Position numbers and translations under genes: made by a program. A stretch of DNA of 61,933 nucleotides, taken from Candidatus Methylobacter oryzae. Lineage in GTDB: Bacteria > Pseudomonadota > Gammaproteobacteria > Methylococcales > Methylomonadaceae. Shown piece by piece: positions 1 to 47,810 of this stretch. Position 1 is the first letter of the stretch, and every line of letters starts with the position of its first letter. The stretch covers positions 1 to 61,933 of the forward strand of contig CAMAUL010000010.1 of assembly GCA_945861405.1 (NCBI GenBank). The letters are read 5' to 3'. The notes beneath the pieces are model-generated. The model had not been told where the DNA came from and made no database searches. It saw only the letters and a list, made by a program, of their open reading frames with translations.

Positions 1-233
1 CTCAGCCAGTCCAGATCGTAGTCGATCAGCGTCCAGTCAGGATTTTTGATCGCATTGACGATGTCGCTTTTTAATCCCAGGGCGTTCAGTGCGGAAGACG
101 ATTCTGCAAACAACTGTGCCGGGGTATGGCTTTCAAGCAGGCGGAGAAATGTCCTGCAACCGACTCCTGGCGTGCGCAATAGCGCAAGCCAGTATTTTAT
201 GTCCGGCTCGGTTTGATGGGTGCTAGTGTTCAG
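1..233 (-). CDS. dprA: DNA processing protein DprA, partial (N-terminus only)
   Basis: The minus strand encodes the N-terminal part of DprA/Smf and runs off the left edge of the window. The translated stretch contains YWLALLRTPGVG followed by a helix-hairpin-helix-like segment, which is how DprA proteins begin. DprA loads RecA on incoming single-stranded DNA during natural transformation. No ATG is available between the last in-frame stop and the conserved region, so the start is probably a CTG at 231-233 that overlaps the stop of the LysM gene; this start is uncertain. The order dprA-LysM-def-fmt-rsmB is common in Gammaproteobacteria. Confidence 0.75.
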   Translation of the reverse strand, partial: MNTSTHQTEPDIKYWLALLRTPGVGCRTFLRLLESHTPAQLFAESSSALNALGLKSDIVNAIKNPDWTLIDYDLDWL

Positions 234-1351
234 GGGGTTTTAACTTTGTCTAAAACATGCAGCGCTTGGGTCGCTTTCATGACCAGGGCGTAACTGACGC
301 GCTCGAACGGGCGGAAAACCATCAGGGTTCCTGCTACTTCATCGGGCAGGTTAACCCTATCGTTTTTAACCGGGCTGTATTCATCTTTGACGATGTCGCC
401 GCGCTGATAGATGTCCAGCTCGTGTCCGGTTAAGATACCATCGGCAGTACCTTTGTCTATTACGACCACGTTGTAGCGGCCGATTTGGGAAACGCCGCCA
501 AGTACGCTGATAATGTTGCCTTTGATGCTTTGTTCAGGCGGACGTGGGAAAAAATTTAACGCAATATCCTGCTCGGCATTAGTCATAATCCGGTCGCCGA
601 TACGAATTTCACGGTCTGACTTGGTGATGACGAGCGTTGCCGGGTCGCCGGGTTGTTGCAGCGAGGCATCGGCAATGTATTGCGCCTCATAACCCAGCGT
701 TTCGCCGCTATCAGGGCTGATATAGGCGCTTCCCGGTCGGTAAATTGTATAGGTCTGACTTTTCGGTTCGGTTATCGAGCGCACATAAACGCGGTCGCCG
801 GTGCCGACAATGATATGTTCACCGGCAAAGTCGACGACATAAGGCGCATTGCTGAGTTCATTTTCATCCACCACTTTGGGCGATGACAGGAAGCTTGTTA
901 TGGTTTCGATAGGTATTAACCTGATCGCCTGTTTCAGCTCGGTTTCCCGGATACAAGGCAGTAACTTGCCTTCTTCGGAGACGGCAAAGTCTTTGCGTCC
1001 GTGTTTAAAGTCTTGTTCCTTAAGCACGCAGGGCGTATTGGGGGCGGCGACCTGGGGCTGGGGTGCATCGCTACGGGAAAGATTCAGCTGCGGTTTGCCG
1101 TTGACCATCGAAAAGTAAAGCGTATCGCCGGGATAAATCAGATGCGGATTTTTGATTTGGGTATTGTGACTCCATAACTCAGGCCATTGCCAAGGGTGCT
1201 TAAGGAACTTGCCGGATATGTCCCATAATGTGTCGCTTTTGACGACGGTATATTGATCGGGGTGGGACGGGTTTAGTTGTATGTCATCCGCCCATGCGCT
1301 GGCGCTGATGAGGAGGGAAACTATCAATCCGGTGAGTGTTCGAAAAGCCAT
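230..1351 (-). CDS. LysM domain-containing exported protein
   Basis: This 373-residue protein starts with a signal peptide (MAFRTLTGLIVSLLISASAWA) and continues into a LysM domain at about residues 33-80 (YTVVKSDTLWDISGKF ... NPHLIYPGDTLYF). LysM domains bind peptidoglycan, so it is expected in the periplasm. The remaining 290 residues are the conserved but uncharacterised part of the DprA-linked LysM family. An ATG 14 codons upstream (1393) is possible, but the chosen start has AGGA eight bases before it and gives a clean signal peptide. It is divergent from def and precedes dprA. Its precise function is not known. Confidence 0.85.
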   Translation of the reverse strand: MAFRTLTGLIVSLLISASAWADDIQLNPSHPDQYTVVKSDTLWDISGKFLKHPWQWPELWSHNTQIKNPHLIYPGDTLYFSMVNGKPQLNLSRSDAPQPQVAAPNTPCVLKEQDFKHGRKDFAVSEEGKLLPCIRETELKQAIRLIPIETITSFLSSPKVVDENELSNAPYVVDFAGEHIIVGTGDRVYVRSITEPKSQTYTIYRPGSAYISPDSGETLGYEAQYIADASLQQPGDPATLVITKSDREIRIGDRIMTNAEQDIALNFFPRPPEQSIKGNIISVLGGVSQIGRYNVVVIDKGTADGILTGHELDIYQRGDIVKDEYSPVKNDRVNLPDEVAGTLMVFRPFERVSYALVMKATQALHVLDKVKTP

Positions 1352-1495
1352 GTTTGGGTTCCTGTCGGGTCTTTTTGTGCGATCTGAATTCAAAGTTTAG
1401 ATGAAATCAGATAGAATTCCAGTATTCAGGCGAGATCCCGGAATGAACATGTTCATATCTTGGAGATCGCCTTAACTATTATAGTGGAGAGTTTG

Positions 1496-2002
1496 TTGAG
1501 TATTCTATCTATTCTCGAGTTTCCGGATGAACGGTTGCGTAAGAAGGCGACAATCGTAAAAACGGTCGATGATAAAGTCAAAAAATTGGTTGATGATATG
1601 CTTGAAACCATGTACGAATCGCATGGCGTAGGACTGGCCGCAACACAGGTCAATGTGCATCAGCGGGTTGTCGTCATCGATGTCAGCGAGGAAAAGGACG
1701 CCCCGTTATGTTTGATCAATCCTGTGATCATCGAAAAGGATGGCATTAAGGAGTCAGAAGAAGGCTGTCTTTCGGTGCCCGGTTTTTTTGAAAAAGTGGA
1801 GCGGGCCGAGCATGTCATCGTCAGGGCGCTGAACAGGGAGGGCGAGTCGTTTGAATTAAGCGCCAGGGATTTGCTGGGCGTGTGCGTTCAGCACGAACTG
1901 GATCACTTGGACGGAAAGCTGTTCGTCGATTATATTTCACCGCTCAAACGGCAGCGGATTAAGAAGAAATTGGAAAAAGCACACAAAATGGAAACAAGTT
2001 GA
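1496..2002 (+). CDS. def: Peptide deformylase
   Basis: This enzyme removes the formyl group from the N-terminal methionine of nascent proteins, using a metal ion in the cytoplasm. All three family motifs are present in the 168-residue product: GVGLAATQ (44-51), EGCLS (89-93, metal ligand Cys91) and QHELDH (132-137, metal ligands His133 and His137, catalytic Glu134). The start is taken as TTG at 1496, preceded by GGAG with six-base spacing; this gives the usual family beginning ([15 protein letters not shown]) and length. Longer in-frame readings back to 1460 add residues not typical of Def. It overlaps or abuts fmt and forms an operon with fmt and rsmB. Confidence 0.95.
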
Positions 2003-2004
2003 GC

Positions 2005-2952
2005 ATGAAAATCATTTTTGCCGGAACCCCTGAGTTTGCCGTGCCTTGTTTGCAGATGTTGCTGGATTCGGGACACGAGATTTGCGCCGTTTATACCCAG
2101 CCCGACCGTCCGGCCGGCAGGGGGCGCAAGCTGCATCCCAGTCCGGTCAAGGAGCTGGCTTTATCAGCCGGAATCCCCGTTTTTCAGCCGCTTACGATGA
2201 AAACCGATGAGGACTTGCAGCAGATCAGTTCTTTTAATGCCGATTTGATGGTGGTGGTCGCATACGGCATGATTTTAACCCAGACCGTATTGGATGTGCC
2301 CAAACTGGGCTGCATCAATGTGCATGCGTCATTGTTGCCGCGTTGGCGGGGAGCTGCGCCGATTCAGCGGTCATTGATGGCGGGCGATCAAAAAACCGGC
2401 GTCACCATTATGCAGATCGTGCGCAAACTCGATGCAGGCGATATGCTGCACAAGGAAGAATGCGTGATCGGCGAGACCGACACGGCCAGCGATTTACATG
2501 ACAAATTGGCTGCGTTGGGCGCTATCGGCCTGACTAAAGTATTGGCGCAAATTGAGGCCGGAACCGTTCATGCCGAGCCGCAGGATGAGGCGCTGGTGAC
2601 TTATGCCGAAAAACTGGAAAAAAGCGAAGCGGTTATCGACTGGACACAAGCGGCTGAGGACATCGCCCGGAAAGTCAGGGGATTAAACGCATGGCCGGTC
2701 GCGCAAACGCTGTATCAGGGCAACGTGCTGCGCATCTGGCAGGCCGTGCCGGTAAGTGACGAAGCCATCGTAGGGGCGACCGGCCGGTCGCCCTTAGAAC
2801 CCGGCACCGTACGCTGCGCTGATAAACATATGGATGTAGCGACTGGGGACGGTTTTTTAAGGCTGCTGGAAGTGCAGCTGCCGGGCGGAAAACGCATGCC
2901 GGTTCAAGCCTTTTTGAGCGCTCATGACACTGAAGGGGTAAAACTCGGTTGA
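2005..2952 (+). CDS. fmt: Methionyl-tRNA formyltransferase
   Basis: Fmt formylates initiator Met-tRNA using 10-formyltetrahydrofolate. The 315-residue product shows the N-terminal formyltransferase domain with FAGTPEFAV at the start and HASLLPRWRGAAPIQRSL around the active site, followed by the C-terminal tRNA-binding domain (GDGFLRLLEVQLPGGK). A TTG at 1999 is an alternative start; ATG 2005 is preferred. An unusual stretch, VGATGRSPLE, in the C-terminal domain is encoded by a 20-bp perfect palindrome (2774-2793) that matches an intergenic repeat elsewhere in the window, so it looks like an in-frame repeat insertion. It lies between def and rsmB and overlaps rsmB by four bases. Confidence 0.95.
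   Translation: MKIIFAGTPEFAVPCLQMLLDSGHEICAVYTQPDRPAGRGRKLHPSPVKELALSAGIPVFQPLTMKTDEDLQQISSFNADLMVVVAYGMILTQTVLDVPKLGCINVHASLLPRWRGAAPIQRSLMAGDQKTGVTIMQIVRKLDAGDMLHKEECVIGETDTASDLHDKLAALGAIGLTKVLAQIEAGTVHAEPQDEALVTYAEKLEKSEAVIDWTQAAEDIARKVRGLNAWPVAQTLYQGNVLRIWQAVPVSDEAIVGATGRSPLEPGTVRCADKHMDVATGDGFLRLLEVQLPGGKRMPVQAFLSAHDTEGVKLG
2770..2796. repeat. Palindromic repeat read in frame inside fmt
   Basis: A perfect palindrome (GGGCGACCGGCCGGTCGCCC, 2774-2793), preceded by GTAG and followed by TTA, lies inside the fmt reading frame. Nearly the same sequence occurs as an intergenic repeat at 41559-41584, with one base changed at the centre. It encodes VGATGRSPLE in Fmt. Confidence 0.7.
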
Positions 2953-4241
2953 ATACACGATTAGTCGCGGCCAAAGTATTGTCCCGTATTTTGCAAGACG
3001 GGCAGTCTTTAACCGCCGCGCTGGACAAGGTATTTTTGGACATTGAATCGGCTAAAGACCGGGCTTTCATTCAGGCGCTCTGCTACGGCGTTTGCAGACA
3101 ATATCACCGGCTGGATTTTATTTTAAATCAATTGCTGGATAAACCTCTCAAAGACGCCGACGTTAAGGCGTTGGCTTTGGTAGGTTTGTACCAACTCAAC
3201 TTCATGCGGGTAAAGCCCCATGCGGCGGTATCGGAAACGGTGTTGGCGGCGCGTAAAAAACCGTGGGCCAAGTCGCTGATCAATGCGTTGCTTCGAACTT
3301 ATCTGCGTGAGCAGGAAGGACTGGAACACAAGGCGGATAAATTTCAGGTCGCAGCCCTAAGCCATCCAGACTGGCTGATTAAACAAATCGAGCAGGATTG
3401 GCCGGAGCAGGCATTAAGAATTTTTCTGGAAAACAACCGGCAACCGCCGATGGTATTGCGGGTCAACTTGGCGAAAACCAGCCGCGATCATTATTTGCAA
3501 TTATTAACCGGGCAGGATATAGCGGCCCAAACCGTCAGCTTTTGCCTGTCGGCGATTGTGCTGGATAAACCTGTGCCGGTGGAGTTGCTGCCCGGTTTTA
3601 CCGACGGTCTGGTATCGGTTCAGGACACCGCCGCGCAATTGGCGGTCGGATTGCTGGATGTTCAGCCGGGACACCGGGTGCTGGATGTCTGTGCCGCGCC
3701 GGGCGGAAAAACCGCGCATATCCTTGAAAGCCAGCCTCAGCTAAAAGAGCTGGTCGCCGTCGATATAGACGAAGCCAGAATGCAGCGGGTCAGCGAAAAT
3801 TTGCAACGATTAAACTTGCAAGCCAAGCTGGTGGTAGGCGATGCGGCCAACCCTAAAGAGTGGTGGGACGGCCAGCCGTTCGACCGGATATTGCTGGACG
3901 CGCCGTGTTCAGCTTTGGGCGTTATCCGCCGTCATCCCGATATTAAACTATTGCGCAGAGCCGAGGACATCGGGCAATTGCAGGCCTTGCAGAAATCCAT
4001 CCTGCAAGCCGTCTGGCCGCTGTTAGCGCCCGGCGGACTTATGGTCTACGCTACCTGCTCCATTTTGAAGCAGGAAAACGAGCAGCAGGTTCAAGCCTTT
4101 CTGGCCGAACACGCCGATGCGCGCGAGTTGCCGATAGATGCAGACTGGGGAATTACCGGAGTATGCGGGCGTCAGATTTTGACCGGCGAATCGGCAATGG
4201 ACGGATTTTATTATGCGCGGCTGAGTAAGGGGTCGTCATGA
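2949..4241 (+). CDS. rsmB: 16S rRNA (cytosine-967 C5)-methyltransferase RsmB (Sun/Fmu)
   Basis: RsmB methylates C967 of 16S rRNA using S-adenosylmethionine. The 430-residue protein has an N-terminal NusB-like RNA-binding domain (about 1-140) and a Rossmann methyltransferase domain with the SAM-binding motif DVCAAPGGKTAHILE, the motif IV cysteine in LDAPCSALG (near residue 320) and the catalytic-motif cysteine in YATCS (near 370). The start is a TTG overlapping the fmt stop. Its TGA overlaps an ATG (ATGA, 4238-4241), which is the usual translational coupling to the next operon gene, but that next reading frame stops after 12 codons. The normal downstream partner, DUF4390, lies 8.7 kb away beyond an accessory island. 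Confidence 0.95.
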   Translation: MNTRLVAAKVLSRILQDGQSLTAALDKVFLDIESAKDRAFIQALCYGVCRQYHRLDFILNQLLDKPLKDADVKALALVGLYQLNFMRVKPHAAVSETVLAARKKPWAKSLINALLRTYLREQEGLEHKADKFQVAALSHPDWLIKQIEQDWPEQALRIFLENNRQPPMVLRVNLAKTSRDHYLQLLTGQDIAAQTVSFCLSAIVLDKPVPVELLPGFTDGLVSVQDTAAQLAVGLLDVQPGHRVLDVCAAPGGKTAHILESQPQLKELVAVDIDEARMQRVSENLQRLNLQAKLVVGDAANPKEWWDGQPFDRILLDAPCSALGVIRRHPDIKLLRRAEDIGQLQALQKSILQAVWPLLAPGGLMVYATCSILKQENEQQVQAFLAEHADARELPIDADWGITGVCGRQILTGESAMDGFYYARLSKGSS

Positions 4242-4449
4242 ACGAAATTGTGAAGAAGGAACAGTCGGGAGCATAAGCGCACCGAAATGTAATAAAAAAT
4301 GCAGGGTACGCTGTGCATGCCCCATAGTGGGCGAGTTTGATTTTAGGGTGGCAAACCGGATTTTTATATCATGATATGATACGTTAGGCTTTAAGGTGCG
4401 CTCGGTGTATCTACTCCCTAAATATTAATCATTTTTTAAAAGAGGCGTT
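4242..4449. other. Left junction of the accessory island
   Basis: This gap holds a 12-codon stub coupled to rsmB (ATG 4238 to TAA 4276), which may be the remnant 5' end of the DUF4390 gene. It also holds a 12-bp perfect palindrome ATATCATGATAT at 4366-4377 that could be an operator for the next gene, and a GGTGCGC half-repeat at 4394-4400. Base composition becomes AT-rich from about 4350. Confidence 0.4.
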
Positions 4450-5334
4450 ATGGCTAGAACATCGACATTAAAAGTTTGTGCCCTAAATATTGCAATGCAC
4501 GATCCACATTCACCTGAGCTATACATTGATCTTATGCAAACCGCTTATAACTCCCGATCATACGCGGCAAAAGGTGATTATCATGCGTTCATTGGATCTA
4601 TCTATCCAATTGACAAAAATGATAAATTGAAAGGTATAACTGGTGAAATTTACAAGTTTCTGCATTTGGATCCCACTGAACCATGGTTTAATTTACTCAA
4701 TAAGGAAGAGGCAAAAGAAGAAGAGCTGTATGAAATTAATATCCCTGCTCACTTAAAACCCCATCTAACCAAGTATCCTTTTGTCTTCTTCCCTAAAGGC
4801 CATAGGCTTTATTTTCAAACCAATGGTAAGCATAAAATATCACCTAGTTCAGCAGCATTGATTTTTGAAAAAATATTTTGCCACGAAGATTCGCAGAAGT
4901 TTGGAGAAGTTGAAATTACTGTAGAGCCTGATAAAGATGAGCTTGAAGACATTTTTAATATGGCTACAGTTCAACGGCTACATATTGAATTATTTAGGCC
5001 TAATCCCGATGATCACGAAGAATATGAGAAGAAATTACTTGAACGATTGAGACGACAAAATGCGAATAGAATGAAAATCGATTTAACTTCGGTAAGAGGG
5101 CAGACACTAGAGCCTGATGAAGAAACTAAAGCGCTGGCAAATGTCGCCGCATCAAACGGATATGTCATTGCATCAGGTAGAGATTTAGATGGTCAATCTA
5201 TTGAAAGATCAACAAAAAATATTCCTTGGATTGAAAACTTCCCGTACAATTCAGAACAACAAACTTTTAATGATGCATTGCTACAAGTCGCCGAACAGAT
5301 GCACAATCAATTATTATGTATACCGGCACATTAA
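4450..5334 (+). CDS. DUF4747-like protein of the two-gene cassette (candidate defence gene)
   Basis: The product is a 294-residue soluble protein with no signal peptide or membrane segment. It begins with a beta-rich region (LKVCALNIAMHDP ... YIDLMQTAYNSR), a central part with IYKFLHLDPTEPWFN and FFPKGHRLYFQTNG, and an acidic/basic helical C-terminus (EEYEKKLLERLRRQNANRMK). The pattern resembles what I recall of the DUF4747 family, but I cannot confirm this without a profile search, and no catalytic motif is evident. The gene is markedly more AT-rich than the flanking operon, and its last 19 bases overlap the start of a membrane-protein gene. The cassette sits exactly where the 5' part of hsdR should be, inside restriction-modification remnants. 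A role in phage defence is inference from context. Confidence 0.55.
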   Translation: MARTSTLKVCALNIAMHDPHSPELYIDLMQTAYNSRSYAAKGDYHAFIGSIYPIDKNDKLKGITGEIYKFLHLDPTEPWFNLLNKEEAKEEELYEINIPAHLKPHLTKYPFVFFPKGHRLYFQTNGKHKISPSSAALIFEKIFCHEDSQKFGEVEITVEPDKDELEDIFNMATVQRLHIELFRPNPDDHEEYEKKLLERLRRQNANRMKIDLTSVRGQTLEPDEETKALANVAASNGYVIASGRDLDGQSIERSTKNIPWIENFPYNSEQQTFNDALLQVAEQMHNQLLCIPAH

Positions 5335-5864
5335 ATATTTTTGTCAAATATTGGCAAGCATATGGAGGTGCAAAGGCATTAATTAAATCGCCATATTTGC
5401 ACCTTGCTTTCCTGTTGCTACTTATTACCTCCCATTTCTGGCTGACTGATAAATGGTGGGAGCAAAGCATTTCAATTTTACCGAATTTGTTAGGATTTTC
5501 ACTTGGCGGCTTTGCTATGTTTCTTGGGTTCGGAGATGAAAAATTCAGAGCCATTCTTGCTGAATCCGACGGAAATAATGAGACTTCTCCCTACGAAAGT
5601 TTATGCGCATCCTTTGTACATTTTATAGTTGTGCAATTTTTAGCTTTAACAATTGCCTTAATCGCGAAATCATTAGATTTTTGGATGCCAATGCCAGAAT
5701 TAATGCGCCAAATGTTAATTTGGTGCGAATTTTTCTTTTCAGGTCTTGGCTATTTGCTCTTTTTTTATTCAATTACGTCAATGTTGGCAGCAACAATGGC
5801 TGTATTTAGAACTTGCTTTTGGTACGCTAAATTTCAAAATTCATCAAAGGATTCAACGAGGTAA
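5316..5864 (+). CDS. Four-helix inner-membrane protein, partner of the DUF4747-like gene
   Basis: The 182-residue product has about four hydrophobic segments (near 28-45, 50-72, 95-120 and 130-165) and no recognisable catalytic motif; short basic tails lie at both ends. It starts inside the end of the preceding gene (19-bp overlap), so the two are almost certainly co-translated. An intracellular protein paired with a small multi-pass membrane protein in a defence-rich island fits the plan of abortive-infection systems, where the membrane protein is the effector; this is inference. I do not recognise a family. Confidence 0.5.
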   Translation: MYTGTLNIFVKYWQAYGGAKALIKSPYLHLAFLLLLITSHFWLTDKWWEQSISILPNLLGFSLGGFAMFLGFGDEKFRAILAESDGNNETSPYESLCASFVHFIVVQFLALTIALIAKSLDFWMPMPELMRQMLIWCEFFFSGLGYLLFFYSITSMLAATMAVFRTCFWYAKFQNSSKDSTR

Positions 5865-5882: not shown

Positions 5883-5900
5883 GGGTGCGTGTCGCGCACC
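5883..5900. repeat. Palindromic repeat at the right edge of the two-gene cassette
   Basis: The hairpin GGGTGCGTGTCGCGCACC lies directly after the membrane-protein gene and before the truncated hsdR. A close copy (GGTGCGCATCGCGCACC) lies at 47794-47810, and a half-copy at 4394-4400 flanks the cassette on the left. Confidence 0.6.
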
Positions 5901-5951
5901 ATTTCTGATATTTGGCGTTTGTTAAGGTGAGTTTGTGCATCCTTGTTTGAG

Positions 5952-7250
5952 TAAAGCTGCAAAGCGGATGACGCCAAGTCGGTATTGGCGGACTTTCGCA
6001 ACGCCTATTACCCGCGCATCGCCGTCACCGTGGACATGATTGCTACCGGCACCGACGTGAAGCCGCTGGAATGCCTGCTGTTCATGCGCGACGTAAAAAG
6101 CCGTAACTATTTCGAGCAGATGAAAGGCCGTGGCACGCGCACGCTGGACATGGACGACCTGAAAAAAGTCACGCCCTCCGCCGTCAGCGCCAAGACCCAT
6201 TACGTGATCGTCGATGCCATCGGCGTCACCAAATCGCTTAAAACCGCCAGCCAGCCGCTGATCACCAAGCCCACCGTGCCGCTGAAAGATTTGGCGATGC
6301 AGGTGATGATGGGCGCGACCGACGAAGACACGGTGTCATCGCTGGCCGGACGACTGGCCCGGCTCAACAAACAACTGGATGCCGATGACCAGCGGCGCAT
6401 TCGGGAAGCCGCCGGAGGCATGGAGCTCACCCAGCTTGTCGGCAAGCTGTTCGCCGCGATAGATGCCGACAACATCGAGGCCAGAGCCTTGGAACTGGCC
6501 GGACAACCCACCGGCACCGATCCCGGCGACGCCAAGCGCGAACTGGCGCAACAGCAACTGGTAGGCGAGGCTGCGAAAGTATTGAACGGCGAACTGGTCG
6601 AACTCATCGAATCCATCCGCCGCGACAAGGAACAAACTATCGACCACGACAACATCGACCGCGTGTTACGCGCCGAGTGGGACAAAGACGCCGCAGGCAA
6701 CGCGCAAACCCTGACCGCTGAATTCGCCGATTACCTGAGAGCCAATCAGGATAACATTGAAGCGCTGACTATTTTCTTCAGCCAGCCTTACAGAAGACGC
6801 GAACTCAGCTTCAACCTGATCCGCCAGGTGCTGGACAAACTTAAAATAGACCAGCCCAAGCTCGCCCCGTTGCGCGTCTGGCAAGCCTATCGCCAATTGG
6901 ACGACTACAAAGGCGCACAGCCGATCAGCGAACTGACCGCACTGGTTGCGCTGATCCGCCGCGTGTGCGGCATGGATGAAAACCTTTCCACCTTCGACGA
7001 CACTGTGCGCCGCAACTTCCAGAACTGGATCATGAAACACCACTCCGGCGGCGGCGATAAATTCAACGAACAACAAATGGACTGGCTGCGCATGGTGCGC
7101 GATCACGTCGCCAACTCCTTCCACATCGAACGCGACGATCTGGAAATGTCGCCTTTCGACGGGCAGGGCGGATTAGGTAAAATGTATCAACTGTTCGGCG
7201 CAAACATGGATACATTGCTGGACGAACTCAACGAGGTACTGGTCGCATGA
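5952..7250 (+). pseudogene. hsdR: Type I restriction enzyme R subunit, C-terminal remnant
   Basis: The 430-codon open stretch encodes only the C-terminal half of an EcoEI-type HsdR: the end of the second helicase domain (IAVTVDMIATGTDVKPLEC, then motif VI with GRGTRT) and the EcoEI_R_C-like helical domain that contacts the methylase. The N-terminal nuclease and the first helicase domain, including Walker A and the DEAD box, are absent; homology begins right after an in-frame TAA near 5951. The only late start is TTG 5985. ATP hydrolysis and DNA cleavage should therefore be lost. The missing part is replaced by the two-gene cassette upstream. It overlaps the HEPN gene by four bases. Confidence 0.85.
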
Positions 7251-7663
7251 ACACACAAGACATACGCTGGCAACAACGCTTCGACAATTTCAACCGGGCG
7301 CTCGAACAACTGACGCAGGCCGTCGAACTTTCCCGGCAGCGGCCCCTTTCCGATCTGGAAAAACAGGGCGTCATCCAGGGCTTTGAGATTGCGCACGAAC
7401 TGGCCTGGAATGTGCTCAAGGATTTCCTCGCCTACGAGGGCATCACGGGCATTGTCGGGTCACGGGGCGCGGTGCGCGAAGCGTTCAGGCGCGAATTGCT
7501 TATTGATGGCGAGCTGTGGATGGACATGATAGAGAAGCGCAATCTTTCCTCGCACACCTACAACAAGGCGCTCGCGGAAGAGTTGGTCAACGCCATCGTC
7601 GGCGGCTATCACGCAGCCTTCCTCGTCCTGCAACAAGAAATGCAGTCCAGACTGCAAGCATGA
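7247..7663 (+). CDS. HEPN-domain protein (nucleotidyltransferase substrate-binding, HI0074-like)
   Basis: This 138-residue, largely helical protein matches the HI0074 nucleotidyltransferase-substrate-binding family, part of the HEPN superfamily. The motif RNLSSH (Arg98 to His103) matches the R-x4-H signature of HEPN ribonucleases. It overlaps the truncated hsdR by four bases and the following nucleotidyltransferase gene by four bases. HEPN/MNT pairs act as toxin-antitoxin modules: the HEPN protein is the RNase toxin and the MNT partner modifies and silences it. Its position inside a type I restriction operon suggests a module linked to that system. Confidence 0.85.
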   Translation: MNTQDIRWQQRFDNFNRALEQLTQAVELSRQRPLSDLEKQGVIQGFEIAHELAWNVLKDFLAYEGITGIVGSRGAVREAFRRELLIDGELWMDMIEKRNLSSHTYNKALAEELVNAIVGGYHAAFLVLQQEMQSRLQA

Positions 7664-7992
7664 CAAGTTTCGGGTTGTCAGACCAAACCCTCGCCACGGT
7701 TCGCGCCATCCTGGCCGACTATCCCGAGATTGAGCAAGCCATCCTCTATGGTTCCCGCGCCAAGGGCAACTATAGCAAGGGCTCCGACATCGACCTGACG
7801 CTGGTGGGCGCCGGGCTCGATCATCGCCTACTGGCGAAAATCGCCGGACGGCTGGAAGACTCTCCCATTCCCTATCAGGTGGATTTATCGCTGAAGGCTG
7901 ACATCGACAACCCTAATTTATTGGCGCATATCGAGCGTGTGGGCGTGGTGTTTTATCGCAAGGGCGAATTGAATGATGGGTTGGTGGCGTGA
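7660..7992 (+). CDS. MNT-type nucleotidyltransferase (antitoxin-like)
   Basis: The 110-residue product is a minimal nucleotidyltransferase with GSRAKGNYSKGSDIDL: Gly31-Ser32 and the metal-binding Asp43 and Asp45 of the GSx10DxD signature. In HEPN/MNT modules this enzyme transfers AMP to the HEPN toxin. The start is taken at ATG 7660, which overlaps the HEPN stop; longer readings from 7516 run through the HEPN gene and add non-family sequence. It overlaps hsdS by four bases, so HEPN, MNT, hsdS and the following genes look like one transcript. Confidence 0.85.
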   Translation: MTSFGLSDQTLATVRAILADYPEIEQAILYGSRAKGNYSKGSDIDLTLVGAGLDHRLLAKIAGRLEDSPIPYQVDLSLKADIDNPNLLAHIERVGVVFYRKGELNDGLVA

Positions 7993-10223
7993 TGAGTGAT
8001 GCTTTGCACTTGCCCAAAAACTGGGTGCAAGTAACTGTTGCTGATCTTGGTAAAGTTGTTTCCGGTGGCACTCCATCCACAAAAGAGAATTCCTATTGGG
8101 GTGGAAATATCAGTTGGATTTCACCATCGGATCTTACGGGGTACAGCGATAAATACATATCTAAGGGTGCCAAGTCGATCACTCAAGAGGGTTTGAAGAA
8201 TAGTTCCGCAACGATTATGCCAGCGGGCAGCATTCATTTTTCATCGAGAGCGCCAATTGGTTACACAGTAATAAGCTCCCGTGAAATGACTACCAATCAA
8301 GGTTTCAAGAGCCTCGTTCCAGCGCAAGGCGTGTTTAATGAGTACATTTACTATTACTTCAAAAGTGCAAAGCAATTAGCCGAATCAAGAGCCACCGGGA
8401 CGACGTTCAAAGAAATCTCAGGTGCGGCTTTTAGCAAATTGCCTGTTCCACTTCCTCCGACAAACGAGCAACACCGCATCGTCGCCAAAATCGAAGAGCT
8501 GTTTTCCGAGCTGGACTCTGGGCTAGAAAACCTGAAGACCGCCCGTGCGCAGCTCAAGGTGTATCGCCAAGCGCTGCTGAAACACGCCTTCGAGGGCAAG
8601 CTCACTGCGCAGTGGCGTGCAGAAAACCAGGATAAACTGGAAACCGCCGAGGCTTTGCTCAAGCGCATCCAGCAAGAGCGTGCAGAGCGCTACCAGCAAC
8701 AACTCGCCGACTGGGAAGCCTCCGGCAAACAATGCAGCAAACCCAAAGCCCCGAAACCTCTGTCGCCGCTGACAGCCGAAGAACGGGCTGAGTTGCCCGA
8801 ACTACCGGAGAGAGGGGGGTGGTGCAAATTGGGCGACTTCATTGATTCGATTGATGCAGGTAAAAGTTTTAAGTGTGACGAACGTGAACCGCGTGCTGAT
8901 GAAATAGGTGTTGCGAAAGTAAGTGCGGTGACATGGGGCGAATACGACGAAACAGAAAGCAAAACCTGCACTGATACCTCTAAAGAAAACGAAGCCTATT
9001 TAATTCGGAGCGGCGACTTCATACTTAGCCGGGCTAATACCATTGACCTCGTGGGTGCCTGCGTCATTGCAAGGAAAGTAACCAAGAAAATCATGCTTAG
9101 CGATAAAACGCTTCGCATTAAGTTTGATGGTTTTTCTCAGGAATATTTCCTTCAGTATCTTGGTAGCCGAATTGGGCGCAAACAAATCATGCGGCTATCG
9201 ACTGGCAATCAAGAGTCAATGCGTAATATTGGACAAGATAGAATCCGTTCAATTACAGTCCCCATTTGCTCTGGAATAGAAGCTGAGGTGGTTATGGACG
9301 CTCTTGCATCAAAGTTGTCCGAAGTTGGCCAACTCGAACTAACCATCTCTACCTCATTGCAACAAGCCGAAGCCCTGCGCCAGTCTATCCTGAAAAAAGC
9401 CTTCTCCGGCCAACTCGTCGAGCAGGATGCCAACGACGAGCCTGCATCCTTGCTGCTGGCTCGCATCAAGGCGGAGAAAGCCGAGCAAGCGGTGACGGCA
9501 AAATTGCGCAAACCTCAAAAAGAGCAGACCCAGTCTGTTTCGATCCAAACGAATGTGGTTCCCTTCCCTGCCAAAATCGCCAACATTTCTGCTACGGATT
9601 TACATGCGGGAATTATTGCGCTGGCATACCAGCGCCATGAACAATCGCCTGAATTCCTTAAATATTTCCATCATGTAAAAGTGGAGAAAATCATTCATCT
9701 GGTTGAGGCGCACCTTGGAATTGATTTGGAACGCATGCCCATCAAGGATGCGGCAGGGCCGAATGATTTTTCCCGTCTCAAGCGAAAAGTTGAGCCGCGT
9801 GCCAAAATAGTGAATTGGTTTGACGTGCGGCAAGAAAAGCCCGGTGGTATGTATATCTATCACAAGATGCCTAAGTTTGATGACTTGATAAGTAAAACCA
9901 GAATCGCACTTGGTGAGCGTCTTACAGAGGTTGATGCACTGATCGGGATGTTTTTGAAGTGGCGAACCGAGCATTCGGAAGTTATTGCCACCCTATATGC
10001 AGCTTGGAATAATTTGCTATTGCTTGGTCTTTCCCCCAGCGATGAAGAAATTGTTTATGAGGCACGGGAAAACTGGCACGAAGCCAAGCTCAAAATAGAA
10101 CGGGAGAAGTTTTTTATGGCGTTGAAGTGGATGCATAAGCATGGGTTGGTACCTGTGGGTCGGGGACGGTTTGTGGCAAAGAAAGGCGAGCAGTCCAAGT
10201 CAGGTGAGGTGAAACATGACTAA
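7989..10223 (+). CDS. hsdS: Type I restriction-modification specificity subunit with C-terminal extension
   Basis: HsdS chooses the DNA sequence recognised by the methylase and nuclease. The 744-residue protein has two target-recognition domains (about 8-165 and 275-440), each followed by a conserved helical spacer (NEQHRIVAKIEELFSELDSGL, and QQAEALRQSILKKAFSGQLV). The first spacer is extended by a charged coiled-coil region (about 210-265). Most HsdS proteins are 400-600 residues and end after the second spacer; this one has about 230 more residues (from about 515) with no DNA-recognition pattern. The extension contains AYQRHEQSPEFLKYFHHVKVEK and a likely helix-rich fold, whose function I do not recognise. 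The C-terminus overlaps the DUF1016 gene by eight bases. Confidence 0.88.
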   Translation: MMSDALHLPKNWVQVTVADLGKVVSGGTPSTKENSYWGGNISWISPSDLTGYSDKYISKGAKSITQEGLKNSSATIMPAGSIHFSSRAPIGYTVISSREMTTNQGFKSLVPAQGVFNEYIYYYFKSAKQLAESRATGTTFKEISGAAFSKLPVPLPPTNEQHRIVAKIEELFSELDSGLENLKTARAQLKVYRQALLKHAFEGKLTAQWRAENQDKLETAEALLKRIQQERAERYQQQLADWEASGKQCSKPKAPKPLSPLTAEERAELPELPERGGWCKLGDFIDSIDAGKSFKCDEREPRADEIGVAKVSAVTWGEYDETESKTCTDTSKENEAYLIRSGDFILSRANTIDLVGACVIARKVTKKIMLSDKTLRIKFDGFSQEYFLQYLGSRIGRKQIMRLSTGNQESMRNIGQDRIRSITVPICSGIEAEVVMDALASKLSEVGQLELTISTSLQQAEALRQSILKKAFSGQLVEQDANDEPASLLLARIKAEKAEQAVTAKLRKPQKEQTQSVSIQTNVVPFPAKIANISATDLHAGIIALAYQRHEQSPEFLKYFHHVKVEKIIHLVEAHLGIDLERMPIKDAAGPNDFSRLKRKVEPRAKIVNWFDVRQEKPGGMYIYHKMPKFDDLISKTRIALGERLTEVDALIGMFLKWRTEHSEVIATLYAAWNNLLLLGLSPSDEEIVYEARENWHEAKLKIEREKFFMALKWMHKHGLVPVGRGRFVAKKGEQSKSGEVKHD

Positions 10224-11259
10224 AATGGCATCGACAATACCGGAAGGCTACGCCAGTTGGTTGGCCGATCTGAAAACGCGCATTGCCGACGCACGGCAGA
10301 GGGCGGCACTCAGCGTCAATCAGGAACAAATCCGGCTGTATTGGCAGATTGGTCGCGATATTATGGAGCGTCAAAGCAATCAGGGCTGGGGATCGAAAGT
10401 GATCGACCGGCTTGCCAGCGACCTGAAAGACAGCTTCCCGGACATCAAAGGTTTCTCCAGCAGCAACCTTAAATACATGCGCTATTTCGCCGAGCGTTGT
10501 CCAAATGGGCTAATTGGTCAGCAGCCTGCTGACCAATTGCCGTGGTTTCATATTGTCGCGCTGATTACCAAGTTGGATGATCCAGAACAGCGTGAATGGT
10601 ATGCTCAGCAAACCGTTCAGCATGGCTGGTCGCGCACTACGCTCAACCTGCATATCAAAAACCGGCTGCACCTGCGTCAAGCCAATGCGGTGACCAATTT
10701 TGCCGCCCGTTTGCCCGATGCGCAATCCGACCTTGCTCGTGAAACGCTGAAAGATCCGTACCTGTTCGATTTTCTGGGCTTAGGCGATGAAGCTCACGAG
10801 CGCGACATTGAAGAGGCATTGATACGCCACATTACCCGCTTCCTGCTGGAGTTGGGCGCTGGATTTGCGTTTGTTGGGAGGCAGTTCAAGCTGGATGTGG
10901 GCGGCGACGAATTTTTTATCGACTTGCTGTTCTATCACATCCGCCTTAAGTGCTATGTCGTGGTCGAGCTCAAGGCCACGGCTTTCAAGCCGGAACACGC
11001 AGGGCAACTCAATTTCTATCTCAGTGCAGTAGATGCGCAGATCAAAGCGCCCGACGACAAGCCGACGATTGGCCTGTTGCTGTGCAAGGAAAAGAATCGT
11101 CTGGTCGCCGAATATGCGCTGTCCGGCATTGATCGGCCCATCGGCGTGGCTAATTATGAATTGGTACGTGCGCTGCCTGAACCGCTTGATACCAGCCTGC
11201 CCAGCATTGAGGAAATCGAGGCTGAGTTGCAAAGGGACTTGGAATCGTCCGGTGATTGA
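10216..11259 (+). CDS. DUF1016/YhcG-family PD-(D/E)XK nuclease
   Basis: The 347-residue protein has the YhcG N-terminal helical domain (IRLYWQIGRDIMERQ ... SNLKYMRYFAE, about 1-170) and a C-terminal PD-(D/E)XK nuclease-like domain (about 180-335) with DEFFIDLLFYH followed by VVVELKA, which supplies the Asp and Glu-x-Lys residues. Members often sit inside type I restriction-modification operons, but their exact task is not settled. The start ATG (10216) overlaps the hsdS stop; an internal ATG nine bases later is also possible. The catalytic residues look intact here, in contrast with the broken hsdR and hsdM. Confidence 0.85.
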   Translation: MTKMASTIPEGYASWLADLKTRIADARQRAALSVNQEQIRLYWQIGRDIMERQSNQGWGSKVIDRLASDLKDSFPDIKGFSSSNLKYMRYFAERCPNGLIGQQPADQLPWFHIVALITKLDDPEQREWYAQQTVQHGWSRTTLNLHIKNRLHLRQANAVTNFAARLPDAQSDLARETLKDPYLFDFLGLGDEAHERDIEEALIRHITRFLLELGAGFAFVGRQFKLDVGGDEFFIDLLFYHIRLKCYVVVELKATAFKPEHAGQLNFYLSAVDAQIKAPDDKPTIGLLLCKEKNRLVAEYALSGIDRPIGVANYELVRALPEPLDTSLPSIEEIEAELQRDLESSGD

Positions 11260-11277
11260 TTTACACGTCAATATATC

Positions 11278-11374
11278 TAGTAGTGCGCCGATAGAATGAC
11301 GGTTAAGATGTAGGGGCGGATTTATCCGCCCCTACTACGACTCTATTCGTCAAAATTTCCTTGGCGCACTACTA
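11278..11374. repeat. 97-bp MITE-like inverted-repeat element
   Basis: The ends are perfect 12-bp inverted repeats (TAGTAGTGCGCC at 11278-11289 and GGCGCACTACTA at 11363-11374). The centre is a second palindrome, GTAGGGGCGGA and its complement around TTTA (11310-11335). There is no coding capacity. It separates the DUF1016 gene from hsdM inside the restriction operon and looks like a small non-autonomous mobile element. Confidence 0.75.
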
Positions 11375-11413
11375 TAGTAGCTACACACAAAATTTAAATC
11401 GAGTCTAAAACAC

Positions 11414-12890
<1,477 letters not shown>

Positions 12891-12973
12891 GCACCTAACT
12901 CAACTATCTTCCGGGATTGCTGTTTTTTTATGCCTTTTCTTTGTGTCTTTTATGGTAAATTTATTCATTCTTC

Positions 12974-13588
12974 TTGATTAATAAGATTCTCATTTTGTTG
13001 AAAAACTTTTTCTTGTCTGTTGGCTTGTGCGGCATTTCATTGTGGTTGCTGCCTGTTTTGAGCCATGCGGATACACCTGTCCTGAGCACAGCCGAAGGGT
13101 TTGGCGTACAGGTAAAAAATGCCGAAATTGCCTTGCAAGGCGATAGCTATCTGCTGTCTGCGGATATAGATTATCGGCTCAGTGTGCGGGCAAAGGAGGC
13201 GTTGCAAAACGGTGTGCCTTTGTATTGGGATGTACACATCAAGACTCTGCAACGTCGCGACTATTTCTGGGATAGCACCTTGGCTAATGCCGCCATCCGT
13301 TACCGCATCCAGTATCATGCCTTGCTGAATATGTACCGGGTCAGGGATGAGGGCAGCCGCGAATTGTATAATTTTTCTACGCTGTCTGCGGCGCTGGATC
13401 TGATGTCAACGATACGCGATTATCGGGTGTTGAAAAGGTCAGCTTATGTGCCTGGAAAGCGCTACGCTGTCGGCATCAAAGTAACGCTTGACCGGGATGC
13501 TCTGCCTTTGCCGCTACGCCCGGTTGCCTATGCTAACCCTCAATGGTATTTATCCAGCGACTGGACATTATGGCCTTTGACAAAATAA
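12974..13588 (+). CDS. DUF4390 domain-containing exported protein
   Basis: This roughly 200-residue protein has an N-terminal signal peptide (KNFFLSVGLCGISLWLLPVLSHA) and the beta-rich DUF4390 domain (YLLSADIDYRLS ... LYWDVHIKTLQRRDYFWD). The family is found between rsmB and ntrY in many Gammaproteobacteria; its function is unknown. No ATG start exists: TTG 12974 and TTG 12995/12998 are the options, which fits loss of the original 5' end when the island was inserted. The residues VLSTAEGF just after the signal peptide are encoded by GTCCTGAGCACAGCCGAAGG, which looks like an interspersed repeat read in frame. It overlaps the ntrY start by 19 bases. Confidence 0.75.
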   Translation: MINKILILLKNFFLSVGLCGISLWLLPVLSHADTPVLSTAEGFGVQVKNAEIALQGDSYLLSADIDYRLSVRAKEALQNGVPLYWDVHIKTLQRRDYFWDSTLANAAIRYRIQYHALLNMYRVRDEGSRELYNFSTLSAALDLMSTIRDYRVLKRSAYVPGKRYAVGIKVTLDRDALPLPLRPVAYANPQWYLSSDWTLWPLTK

Positions 13589-15717
13589 AACCCCCGATCA
13601 GCCTGTCCATATTGATCCTATTTGGCTTGATTCTGCTGCTGTTGCAGCTGATGAGTTCGGCAACGCAGGAGTCTTCAGAGTTGAGCGCGATGTACTCCTG
13701 GCTGCTGTTGGTCAACGCGCTGGGATCGGTGGTGTTGCTGGGGCTGGTCGGCGCTAATATTTATTCTTTGGCGAGGCAGTTAAAAAAACGCGAGGCGGGG
13801 TCGAGGTTAACCACGCGCATGGTGTCGCTGTTCGTGGTGCTGGCTTTGGCGCCTGCGGCTATAGTGTTTTATTTTTCGATGCAATTTCTGCATCAGGGTA
13901 TCGACAGCTGGTTTAATGTGGAAATAGACCGGGCGATGGAGGACGCGCTGGAGCTCAGTCAGGCCTCGCTAGACCAGCGGATGCGCTGGCATTTGCGGCA
14001 AACCCAGCAATTGGCCGAAAAGCTGGAGGAGTCGCCGGAAACGCTGGTGACGCTGGAAATGGAGAATCTGCGTGAGCAATCCGGGGCGTCCGAGATGACC
14101 TTGTTCTCCCGGCAGGGCAGGATTGTCGCATCAAGCAGCATCAACCCCGGCGATATTTTACCGAGCTTGCCGGATGAGCATATCTGGTTGCAATTGCGGC
14201 AGAACTCCGAGTTTGTCGCATTGGCCCCGGTGCGGGAAGATGAGTTGATGATCCGGGCTATCGTCACCGTTAAGGGCAAAGATCAGCAATATTTACAAGC
14301 CTTGTATCCGGTGCCGGTAAGGATTGCCGATTTGGCCGACTCGGTGGAGTTTGCCTTTGTGCGTTATCGGGAGATGCATTTTTTAAGGCACTCGTTAAAG
14401 TTGAGTTTCTCGCTGGCCTTGTCGCTGGTCTTGTTGATGAGTTTGCTGGCGGCGATCTGGGTAGCCTTTATCAGTATCCGCAATATTATTGCCCCGGTAA
14501 AGGCGCTGGTTAAGGGGACGCAGGCGGTGGCTTCCGGGCAGTATGATCAGGAGTTGCCGGTTATTGCTCAGGACGATCTGGGCTTCCTGGTCGAGTCCTT
14601 TAATGAGATGACCCGGCGTATTGCCAGGGCCAGTGATGAAACCCGAATGGCCGGGATTGAGGTGGAAAATCAACGGGCTTATCTGGAAACGATACTGGCG
14701 AATTTAACGGCGGGGGTGATCAGTTTCGATGCGCTGTATAAGATCCGTACGGCGAATCAGGCGGCTTACCGGATTTTCCATATCCATGTGAATCAGTTTG
14801 TCGGGCGGACGTTGCTGGAGCTGGTTCAGGGCTATGCGGAACTGGCCGAACCGTTAAAATCGATCCAGCGGTTAGTGGAGCAAGCCGATGACATATGGCA
14901 ACAGCGGATTGCTTTTTTAGGCTCCAATGGCCGGCAGGAATTGTTGTGCAGAGGCACGCCGCTGTTTTCCCAGGACGGTCGCCGGGTCGGGGCGGTGGTG
15001 GTGTTTGATGATGTGACCGATCTGATTCAGGCGCAGAAAAATGCGGCTTGGGGGGAGGTGGCGAGAAGGCTGGCGCATGAAATCAAAAATCCGTTAACGC
15101 CGATACAATTATCGGCAGAACGGTTGCAGCACAAACTGGCTGAAAAATTGACCGCCGCCGATGCGGAGATGTTGCAGCGTTCAACCACCACCATAGTGCA
15201 GCAGGTTGAGGCGATGAAGGAAATGGTCGATGACTTTTCGGAATACGCCAAGCCGTCCAAAAAGCAGACGGTAGATATCGATTTGCCCGGCTTGGTTCAG
15301 GAGGTGTTGGCGCTTTATGTGTTAAAGTCGGGCGTCAAATTTAAAACCGATGTCGATACCGGCTTGTTGATGATTAAGGGCGACCCGGTTAGTATCAGGC
15401 AGGTGTTGCATAACCTGATCAAGAATGCGCTGGAAGCAATAGACGCTAAAGGTTTGATCGAAATAAGCATGCACCGGGTGCAAAAAAATAATACCGATTT
15501 TATCGAGATAGCGCTTTATGATGACGGGCCGGGCATTAAGGACGAGCAAATTGAACAGATTTTTGAGCCCTATGTGACCACCAAGGCCAAGGGTACGGGA
15601 TTAGGCTTGGCGATAGTCAAGAAAATAATTGAAGAACATGGCGGTGCGATTTGGGTCGACACCAGCCGTAAAGTGGGGGCGGGATTTATCATCCAGCTTC
15701 CGGCGTGTAATTTTTGA
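13570..15717 (+). CDS. ntrY: Nitrogen-regulation type sensor histidine kinase NtrY
   Basis: NtrY is the membrane sensor of the NtrYX two-component system, linked to nitrogen and redox control. The 715-residue product has two N-terminal membrane helices (about 10-60), a further helix with an extracytoplasmic segment, another helix (about 275-300), a HAMP linker (IIAPVKALVKGTQAVASGQYDQELP), a PAS domain (about 365-480), a dimerisation domain with the phospho-accepting His in RRLAHEIKNPLTP, and an ATPase domain (NLIKNALEAI, DDGPGIK, GTGLGLAIVKKI). The start ATG 13570 is chosen; ATG 13543 lies deeper inside DUF4390. It is followed 13 bases later by ntrX. Confidence 0.9.
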   Translation: MAFDKIKPPISLSILILFGLILLLLQLMSSATQESSELSAMYSWLLLVNALGSVVLLGLVGANIYSLARQLKKREAGSRLTTRMVSLFVVLALAPAAIVFYFSMQFLHQGIDSWFNVEIDRAMEDALELSQASLDQRMRWHLRQTQQLAEKLEESPETLVTLEMENLREQSGASEMTLFSRQGRIVASSSINPGDILPSLPDEHIWLQLRQNSEFVALAPVREDELMIRAIVTVKGKDQQYLQALYPVPVRIADLADSVEFAFVRYREMHFLRHSLKLSFSLALSLVLLMSLLAAIWVAFISIRNIIAPVKALVKGTQAVASGQYDQELPVIAQDDLGFLVESFNEMTRRIARASDETRMAGIEVENQRAYLETILANLTAGVISFDALYKIRTANQAAYRIFHIHVNQFVGRTLLELVQGYAELAEPLKSIQRLVEQADDIWQQRIAFLGSNGRQELLCRGTPLFSQDGRRVGAVVVFDDVTDLIQAQKNAAWGEVARRLAHEIKNPLTPIQLSAERLQHKLAEKLTAADAEMLQRSTTTIVQQVEAMKEMVDDFSEYAKPSKKQTVDIDLPGLVQEVLALYVLKSGVKFKTDVDTGLLMIKGDPVSIRQVLHNLIKNALEAIDAKGLIEISMHRVQKNNTDFIEIALYDDGPGIKDEQIEQIFEPYVTTKAKGTGLGLAIVKKIIEEHGGAIWVDTSRKVGAGFIIQLPACNF

Positions 15718-47793: not shown

Positions 47794-47810
47794 GGTGCGC
47801 ATCGCGCACC
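47794..47810. repeat. GGTGCGCATCGCGCACC palindromic repeat
   Basis: A near copy of the repeat at 5883-5900; it directly follows the stop of the small membrane ORF and could terminate it. Confidence 0.6.

Follow-up and report, generated by a model that had tools for sequence, protein, structure and literature searches.

A DUF4747 gene and a membrane-protein gene, here A and B, overlap near the 5' end of the window (the whole analysed stretch of 61,933 nucleotides from Candidatus Methylobacter oryzae), and we consider that together they are probably a Rex-type cassette, mobile and acting by abortive infection, in which B would make the membrane leaky once A has sensed a phage. We base this reading on the pairing of A with B, their correlated identities, patchy spread, varied neighbours and a gene order as in lambda, together with published experiments on CarolAnn, Sbash and Pseudomonas putida and the position of the window copy within a type I restriction island.

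Results

Layout of the cassette

The gene pair is placed between the ORF at 2949-4241, which we take to be rsmB (a name read from the ORF, not from a family search), and a shortened hsdR (5985-7250). The arrangement is as follows:

4242-4449, forward strand: spacer from rsmB to gene A; AGAGG closely 5' of the start codon (sequence)
4450-5334, forward strand: gene A, DUF4747 protein of 294 aa, putative cytoplasmic infection sensor with a RexA-like role
5316-5864, forward strand: gene B, membrane protein of 182 aa, putative effector with a RexB-like role
5884-5900, no strand assigned: REP-like dispersed palindrome GGTGCG-N5-CGCACC, 17 exact genomic sites (control pattern, 0)
5951-7250, forward strand: hsdR remnant, EcoEI_R_C (PF08463, E 1.1e-37), homology start estimated by eye
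7247-7992: HEPN/MNT genes (Pfam)
10216-11259: DUF1016/YhcG nuclease (Pfam)

The ORF list of the window agrees with the first-pass annotation in the coordinates of both genes, their lengths of 294 and 182 codons and their overlap of 19 bases (5316-5334, same strand), and both reading frames are open over the whole length. The AT-richness described there is also real, since GC content is 36.6% at 4450-5864 vs 52.4% at 1-4241 and 52.3% at 5985-15717. Promoter-like matches in 4242-4449 show no excess (7 vs 6.0 in shuffles). A palindrome-like sequence, TATATCATGATATGATA, lies 5' of gene A at 4365-4381 and is a possible operator.

GGTGCGC repeats had been proposed to flank the cassette, and we rejected them as its borders. 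There are 21 copies of GGTGCGC in the window vs 13.1 expected, with as many in 3 of 100 shuffles. The palindrome at 5884-5900 has a second window site at 47794-47810 and is dispersed over 17 exact sites genome-wide, so it is not a border of the cassette; the repeat at 4395 is not among the matches of this palindrome at up to 2 mismatches.

Family assignment

The earlier label of A as "DUF4747-like" can be made firmer, because A is a full-length member of PF15931 (DUF4747; E 3.2e-69, 233.6 bits at a cut-off of 27, model positions 1-257 of 257). It also matches phrog_10040 (E 3.4e-77), and B matches phrog_20580 (E 3.5e-46) and phrog_27113 at E 0.097 only. Against PADLOC-DB 2.0.0, A gave no match at E up to 1, its NCBIfam matches were far under cut-off, and no PDB sequence matched significantly; B gave no match at E up to 1 in Pfam, NCBIfam and PADLOC-DB 2.0.0. 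Neither protein matched an unrelated housekeeping family above cut-off in Pfam, PADLOC, NCBIfam or PHROG, which had been suggested as a check on the first-pass annotation. The idea of A as an enzyme or a toxin-antitoxin component was rejected, as no such family was found above cut-off in Pfam, PADLOC and NCBIfam. Since PADLOC-DB 2.0.0 has no model matching A or B, scans by that library alone would miss the pair.

Pairing, spread and neighbours

Co-occurrence of the two genes in other genomes, the other check suggested beforehand, was found almost throughout. A search with an alignment of B alone led to 48 viral contigs, probably prophages, and A lies directly 5' of B in 45 of them. In one of these 45 (L065) A is in two pieces, in another (L039) it is cut short near the contig end, and in a third (L069) the contig ends within B. 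In terms of families, PHROG 10040 and PHROG 20580 both match and adjoin in the window, and by family profiles the pair is found in the same 45 of 48. Of the three misses, L070 has no DNA 5' of B, and L034 and L035 hold B without any trace of A, two other genes standing in its place. The latter two contigs are related, with 2.2 kb in common at 99.95% and an identical B protein; the orphan B (L034, L035 5974-6555) stands behind a gene read as NinG-like and a small gene, and it may be a leftover or may act to weaken the system. The family search with A led to eight distinct genomes, the window's included, and B follows A in all eight. A is present at both genome contigs found by B, and the two genes are together on all three plasmids found by B, on two of which they lie beside RelE- or BrnTA-type toxin-antitoxin genes.

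Over 44 loci, the more alike two A proteins are, the more alike are their B partners (Mantel r of pairwise identities 0.767; none of 2000 permutations exceeded 0.274). Linked genes would show such a correlation anyway, so it speaks against the two being reshuffled often but is no proof that they interact. As far as sequence comparison can tell, the soluble and the membrane product are nearly invariably paired and inherited together in variable neighbourhoods, and A and B appear as a conserved mobile unit common to prophages, plasmids and chromosomes.

The spread is patchy. Genomes with PF15931 number 7 of 398 in a sample taken evenly over the phylum, 1 of 369 in the class sample, 2 of 201 in that of the order and 1 of 23 in that of the genus; the samples overlap and the window's genome is counted in each. 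No match was found in the 22 congeners, 9 of which are outside the quality class of at least 90% completeness and at most 5% contamination. Three family queries had no match in 50,697 phage records, and two copies had none in a DNA search of E. coli genomes. Single-protein scans of genome and viral contigs gave no relative of window A; with A of another copy they gave only that copy's own contig, and with B of other copies two had no match and one led to a contig already found.

Of the 41 genes lying first upstream, a Pfam family matches 2 at most and a PHROG 3 at most. Two CI repressors and two integrases are among them, as well as methyltransferases and genes for tails and toxin-antitoxin systems. 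Downstream, 34 of 37 first neighbours and 3 of 33 second neighbours were scanned, and the window stands outside the neighbour sets. PADLOC families matching neighbours number 39 upstream and 43 downstream, and each of those among the matches listed (25 per side) matched a single neighbour, most being models of helicase-like proteins or methyltransferases. Nearness to known defence genes is occasional, not general, among the copies scanned. Such varied neighbours are expected for an autonomous cassette with its own function. One copy (L023 1814-2602) follows immediately after a CI-type repressor that has an S24 peptidase domain, in the lambda order cI-rexA-rexB.

These neighbours bear on the question whether the pair serves the phage itself, in its lysogeny switch or lysis timing, with defence secondary and the chromosomal copy a stranded phage gene pair. 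Many copies do lie in viral contigs, CI-type repressors make up 2 of the 41 upstream neighbours, and lambda RexA is reported to bias the lysogeny switch (PMC11077077). On the other hand, immunity-region families were matched by few scanned neighbours, and two plasmid copies lie beside toxin-antitoxin genes and the window copy beside restriction genes. We regard such a phage function as quite improbable.

Conserved residues of A and B

The family alignments comprise 44 A and 45 B proteins, differing at a 90% identity cut; L065 and L039 were left out of the A alignment with their B kept, and L034, L035, L069 and L070, with one gene missing or cut, stand outside both. H118, N185 and G237 do not vary among the 44 distinct A proteins (H118 and N185 in 44/44) and N13, H20, Y25, G65, W79 and P184 hardly do, and no catalytic signature was recognised among the conserved residues. 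Window A agrees with the family at all 29 columns in which at least 75% of the other 43 proteins share a residue. With a pI of 5.55 and a net charge of -12, against a family median pI of 6.65, it is an acidic protein, and acidity is unfavourable to DNA binding; CarolAnn gp44 (pI 5.63) and Toast gp42 (pI 5.52) are acidic as well, and both are reported, with Sbash gp30, as RexA relatives that bind DNA (PMC11077077).

B had been described as a four-helix protein. This holds for the family and only partly for the window copy, as the hydropathy of the family average over 45 members has four peaks (21-39, 54-72, 98-116 and 146-164, the weakest at 1.54), whereas three helices of window B alone pass the cut-off in a Kyte-Doolittle scan. 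The order that marks the Rex type, a soluble gene and then directly a four-helix membrane gene, is found here with the fourth helix in the family average only. The best marked parts of B are as follows:

5388-5411, forward strand: SPYLH motif, residues 25-32, at the start of helix 1 (S25 in 44/45, Y27 in 36/45)
5472-5531, forward strand: helix 2, residues 53-72, PNLLGFSLGGFA (conservation mean 3.11 bits)
5532-5597, forward strand: central loop, residues 73-94, with a GDEKF core (G73 in 36/45, F77 in 39/45)

P56 and F61 are invariant in the 45 B proteins and W13, G18, S25, L59, F100, Q107 and Y151 nearly invariant. Window B agrees with the family at 31/31 well conserved columns, one being the start methionine as assigned, and helix 2 is the best conserved of ten segments defined along B. 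Basic residues number 3.2 per protein before helix 1, 2.8 in the central loop and 0.1 between helices 1 and 2, a pattern that fits a protein whose two termini and central loop lie inside; with 1.6, the loop joining helices 3 and 4 is less clear. The central loop is a candidate contact with A, because two substitutions in the central cytoplasmic region of Sbash gp31, R70A and D73A, are reported to abolish defence (PMC6426596).

Conservation also helps to judge whether A itself could be the antiphage agent, with B only holding or tempering it at the membrane and forming no pore. The arrangement would resemble that of the Butters pair, where gp30 acts alone, abolishing the plating of PurpleHaze, and coexpressed gp31 weakens the effect (PMC7542560), so that an order in which A activates B is not universal. 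The invariant polar residues H118 and N185 of A could form an active site. But B is conserved at least as well as A (mean pairwise identity 0.345 vs 0.284), its best conserved part is helix 2, which a mere anchor would not need, and two viral contigs keep B without A. We therefore find a lone action of A rather unlikely and keep to B as the putative effector.

The restriction island

The surroundings of restriction, HEPN/MNT and DUF1016 genes named in the first-pass annotation are confirmed by Pfam. The order 3' of the cassette is hsdR remnant, HepT-like/nucleotidyltransferase pair, hsdS, DUF1016/YhcG nuclease, hsdM, DUF4390 and NtrY-type kinase. It had also been claimed that the cassette stands where the 5' half of hsdR is missing, and alignment to longer HsdR ORFs agrees: the remaining ORF (5985-7250, 421 aa) lacks about the first 500-550 residues, its start aligning at position 508 of a 660-aa congener HsdR ORF, the remaining part of which matches on another contig, and at position 553 of a 967-aa HsdR of another congener. 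The nuclease and most helicase motifs of HsdR presumably fall within the missing front part. The hsdM gene (11414-12890) lies in two overlapping frames, ORFs of 399 and 179 aa, with N6_Mtase positions 3-209 in one and 204-276 in the next. With hsdM split and hsdR shortened, type I restriction and modification both seem lost, barring sequencing error. The hsdS ORF (7989-10223, 744 aa) has one Methylase_S match at residues 9-180 and a long rest without Pfam match, perhaps a fusion.

In this state of the locus, the window copy might be a passenger or a decaying insertion in a dead restriction locus and now functionless, since only the final 421 codons of hsdR are left and hsdM runs over two frames. 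Against this, A and B are open at full length and match their families at 29/29 and 31/31 well conserved columns, and we hold a dead copy to be very improbable.

DUF4390 adjoins rsmB without the island in 16 of the 21 other congeners having an rsmB match; in 4, stretches of 7.9 to 19.2 kb contain no DUF4390 and no protein of the island, and in 1 the contig ends at the rsmB site. These counts do not support a defence hot spot in the rsmB to DUF4390/ntrY interval. We infer that a restriction island was acquired at this site and that the cassette replaced the front of hsdR in the lineage of the window. In the rsmB/DUF4390 gap of one congener (L090, 2795-2905), about 37 hsdR-like codons remain, which match the HsdR start of one congener (53% over 30 residues, E 5e-9, a single protein) and do not match a second congener HsdR (E 0.40); perhaps a restriction island was gained and lost at one spot.

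Discussion

Comparison with Rex-type systems

The plan of a sensor with a membrane effector, proposed in the first-pass annotation, is still the best reading and the pairing behind it holds, but the plan itself is already known from RexAB, CarolAnn and Sbash. The DUF4747 operon is likewise already in print as an immune operon: a 2026 paper lists a "DUF4747/CarolAnn" immune operon behind capKS in 17 cases, and reports that close to 20% of capKS loci have a restriction-modification operon on one side and on the other an immune operon, CBASS and DUF4747/CarolAnn being examples (PMC13373217). In the window, differently, no capKS was seen between the restriction genes and the pair (ORF list). A strain-specific DUF4747 gene (894 bp) of a Salmonella isolate is followed by a 606-bp hypothetical gene, which is a lead only (PMC11181664). 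Among the open-licence papers accessible to us, we found no experiment on a PF15931 pair.

A close parallel in layout is lambda RexA/RexB (PF15969/PF15968), with the soluble gene first and then the four-helix membrane gene, similar sizes (279/144 aa vs 294/182 aa) and a CI-type repressor in front, as in two copies of our family. The Pfam families differ, and A and B have no Pfam match to PF15969/PF15968. In hhalign, A vs RexA and B vs RexB gave P 0.44 and 0.21, against 0.43 and 0.16 with reversed profiles, and a second profile run of A vs RexA gave P 0.36. As a positive control, L007, which diverges most within the first alignment (14% identical to window A), was found against the rest at P 2.5e-5. 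Profile comparison of A/B with Toast and Butters gave no similarity by a method that also misses RexA vs Toast/Butters (P 0.11), and with CarolAnn gp44/gp43 none by the same method and with single-sequence templates. The method finds a member of 14% identity yet misses RexA vs Toast/Butters, proteins treated as homologues in the RexA paper (PMC11077077), so a distant kinship may have escaped it. The RexA family was found in 0 of 398 genomes vs 7 of 398 for DUF4747, a comparison that is weak because the RexA search matched nowhere, controls included.

Papers name DUF4747 as a domain common to RexA and CarolAnn gp44 from weak HHpred matches. CarolAnn gp44 and Sbash gp30 match it weakly (PMC6426606, PMC6426596), and the match of Butters gp30 has a probability of 69.48 and E 140 (PMC7542560). 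The order of soluble then membrane gene is common, by sequence, to lambda, Butters, Toast, CarolAnn and A/B, and by their papers' descriptions to Sbash gp30/gp31 and P. putida RexApp/RexBpp. CarolAnn gp44/gp43 and Sbash gp30/gp31 are two-gene systems whose membrane protein has four helices as published (PMC6426606, PMC6426596), with soluble proteins of 370 and 372 aa vs 294 for A; defence is reported to require both genes, and infection aborts (PMC6426606, PMC6426596, PMC7542560). Butters gp30/gp31 and Toast gp42/gp41 share with A/B the order, the adjacency and a membrane gene with four hydrophobic helices.

P. putida RexApp/RexBpp (PP_5643/5644), compared by description only, is a soluble and four-helix membrane pair of a gammaproteobacterial prophage. 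There, RexApp is reported to bind DNA and, when overproduced, to make RexBpp damage the membrane, with no depolarisation detected; this is direct evidence for the membrane protein as the growth-stopping effector (PMC12894663). Among 38 escape mutants, the prophage was gone in 30, rexBpp was mutated in 7 and the rexApp cassette was lost in 1; a two-hybrid test showed no interaction of RexApp with RexBpp (PMC12894663). No term starting with DUF was found in this paper. Lambda RexA is reported to be a dimer with structural homology to RdgC (PMC11077077).

Proposed mechanism

In the Rex-type abortive infection that we favour by analogy with the tested systems, phage sensing by A, activation of B by A and membrane damage by B would follow one another. 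A would wait in the cytoplasm and recognise an intermediate of the phage, DNA or protein, and it would then turn on B, probably via the central loop of B. B would span the inner membrane with four helices, its two termini inside, and would oligomerise and make the membrane leaky, and growth would halt before the phage matures. Several points speak against this proposal, namely the lack of profile kinship with lambda RexA/RexB, CarolAnn gp44/gp43 and Toast/Butters, the lone action of Butters gp30, the acidic A, B alone in L034 and L035, the lack of a PADLOC model and of a match in 50,697 phage records, and, for RexApp/RexBpp, the negative two-hybrid test and the absence of depolarisation.

A further, more tentative idea is that the DUF4747/PHROG 20580 pair is a separate abortive-infection family, which might have reached the Rex plan independently or split off beyond sequence recognition. 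It might be commoner than RexAB in the phylum, and might act as a free cassette of prophages, plasmids and chromosomal islands that is able to replace the front of a restriction gene. If so, phages keeping B alone, as in L034 and L035, may turn B against the system.

Finally, how lambda RexAB is triggered by T4rII is reported as unsolved some seventy years after its discovery (PMC12894663). The 44 A and 45 B proteins with their clear conserved residues should open the step from sensor to membrane to mutational probing.
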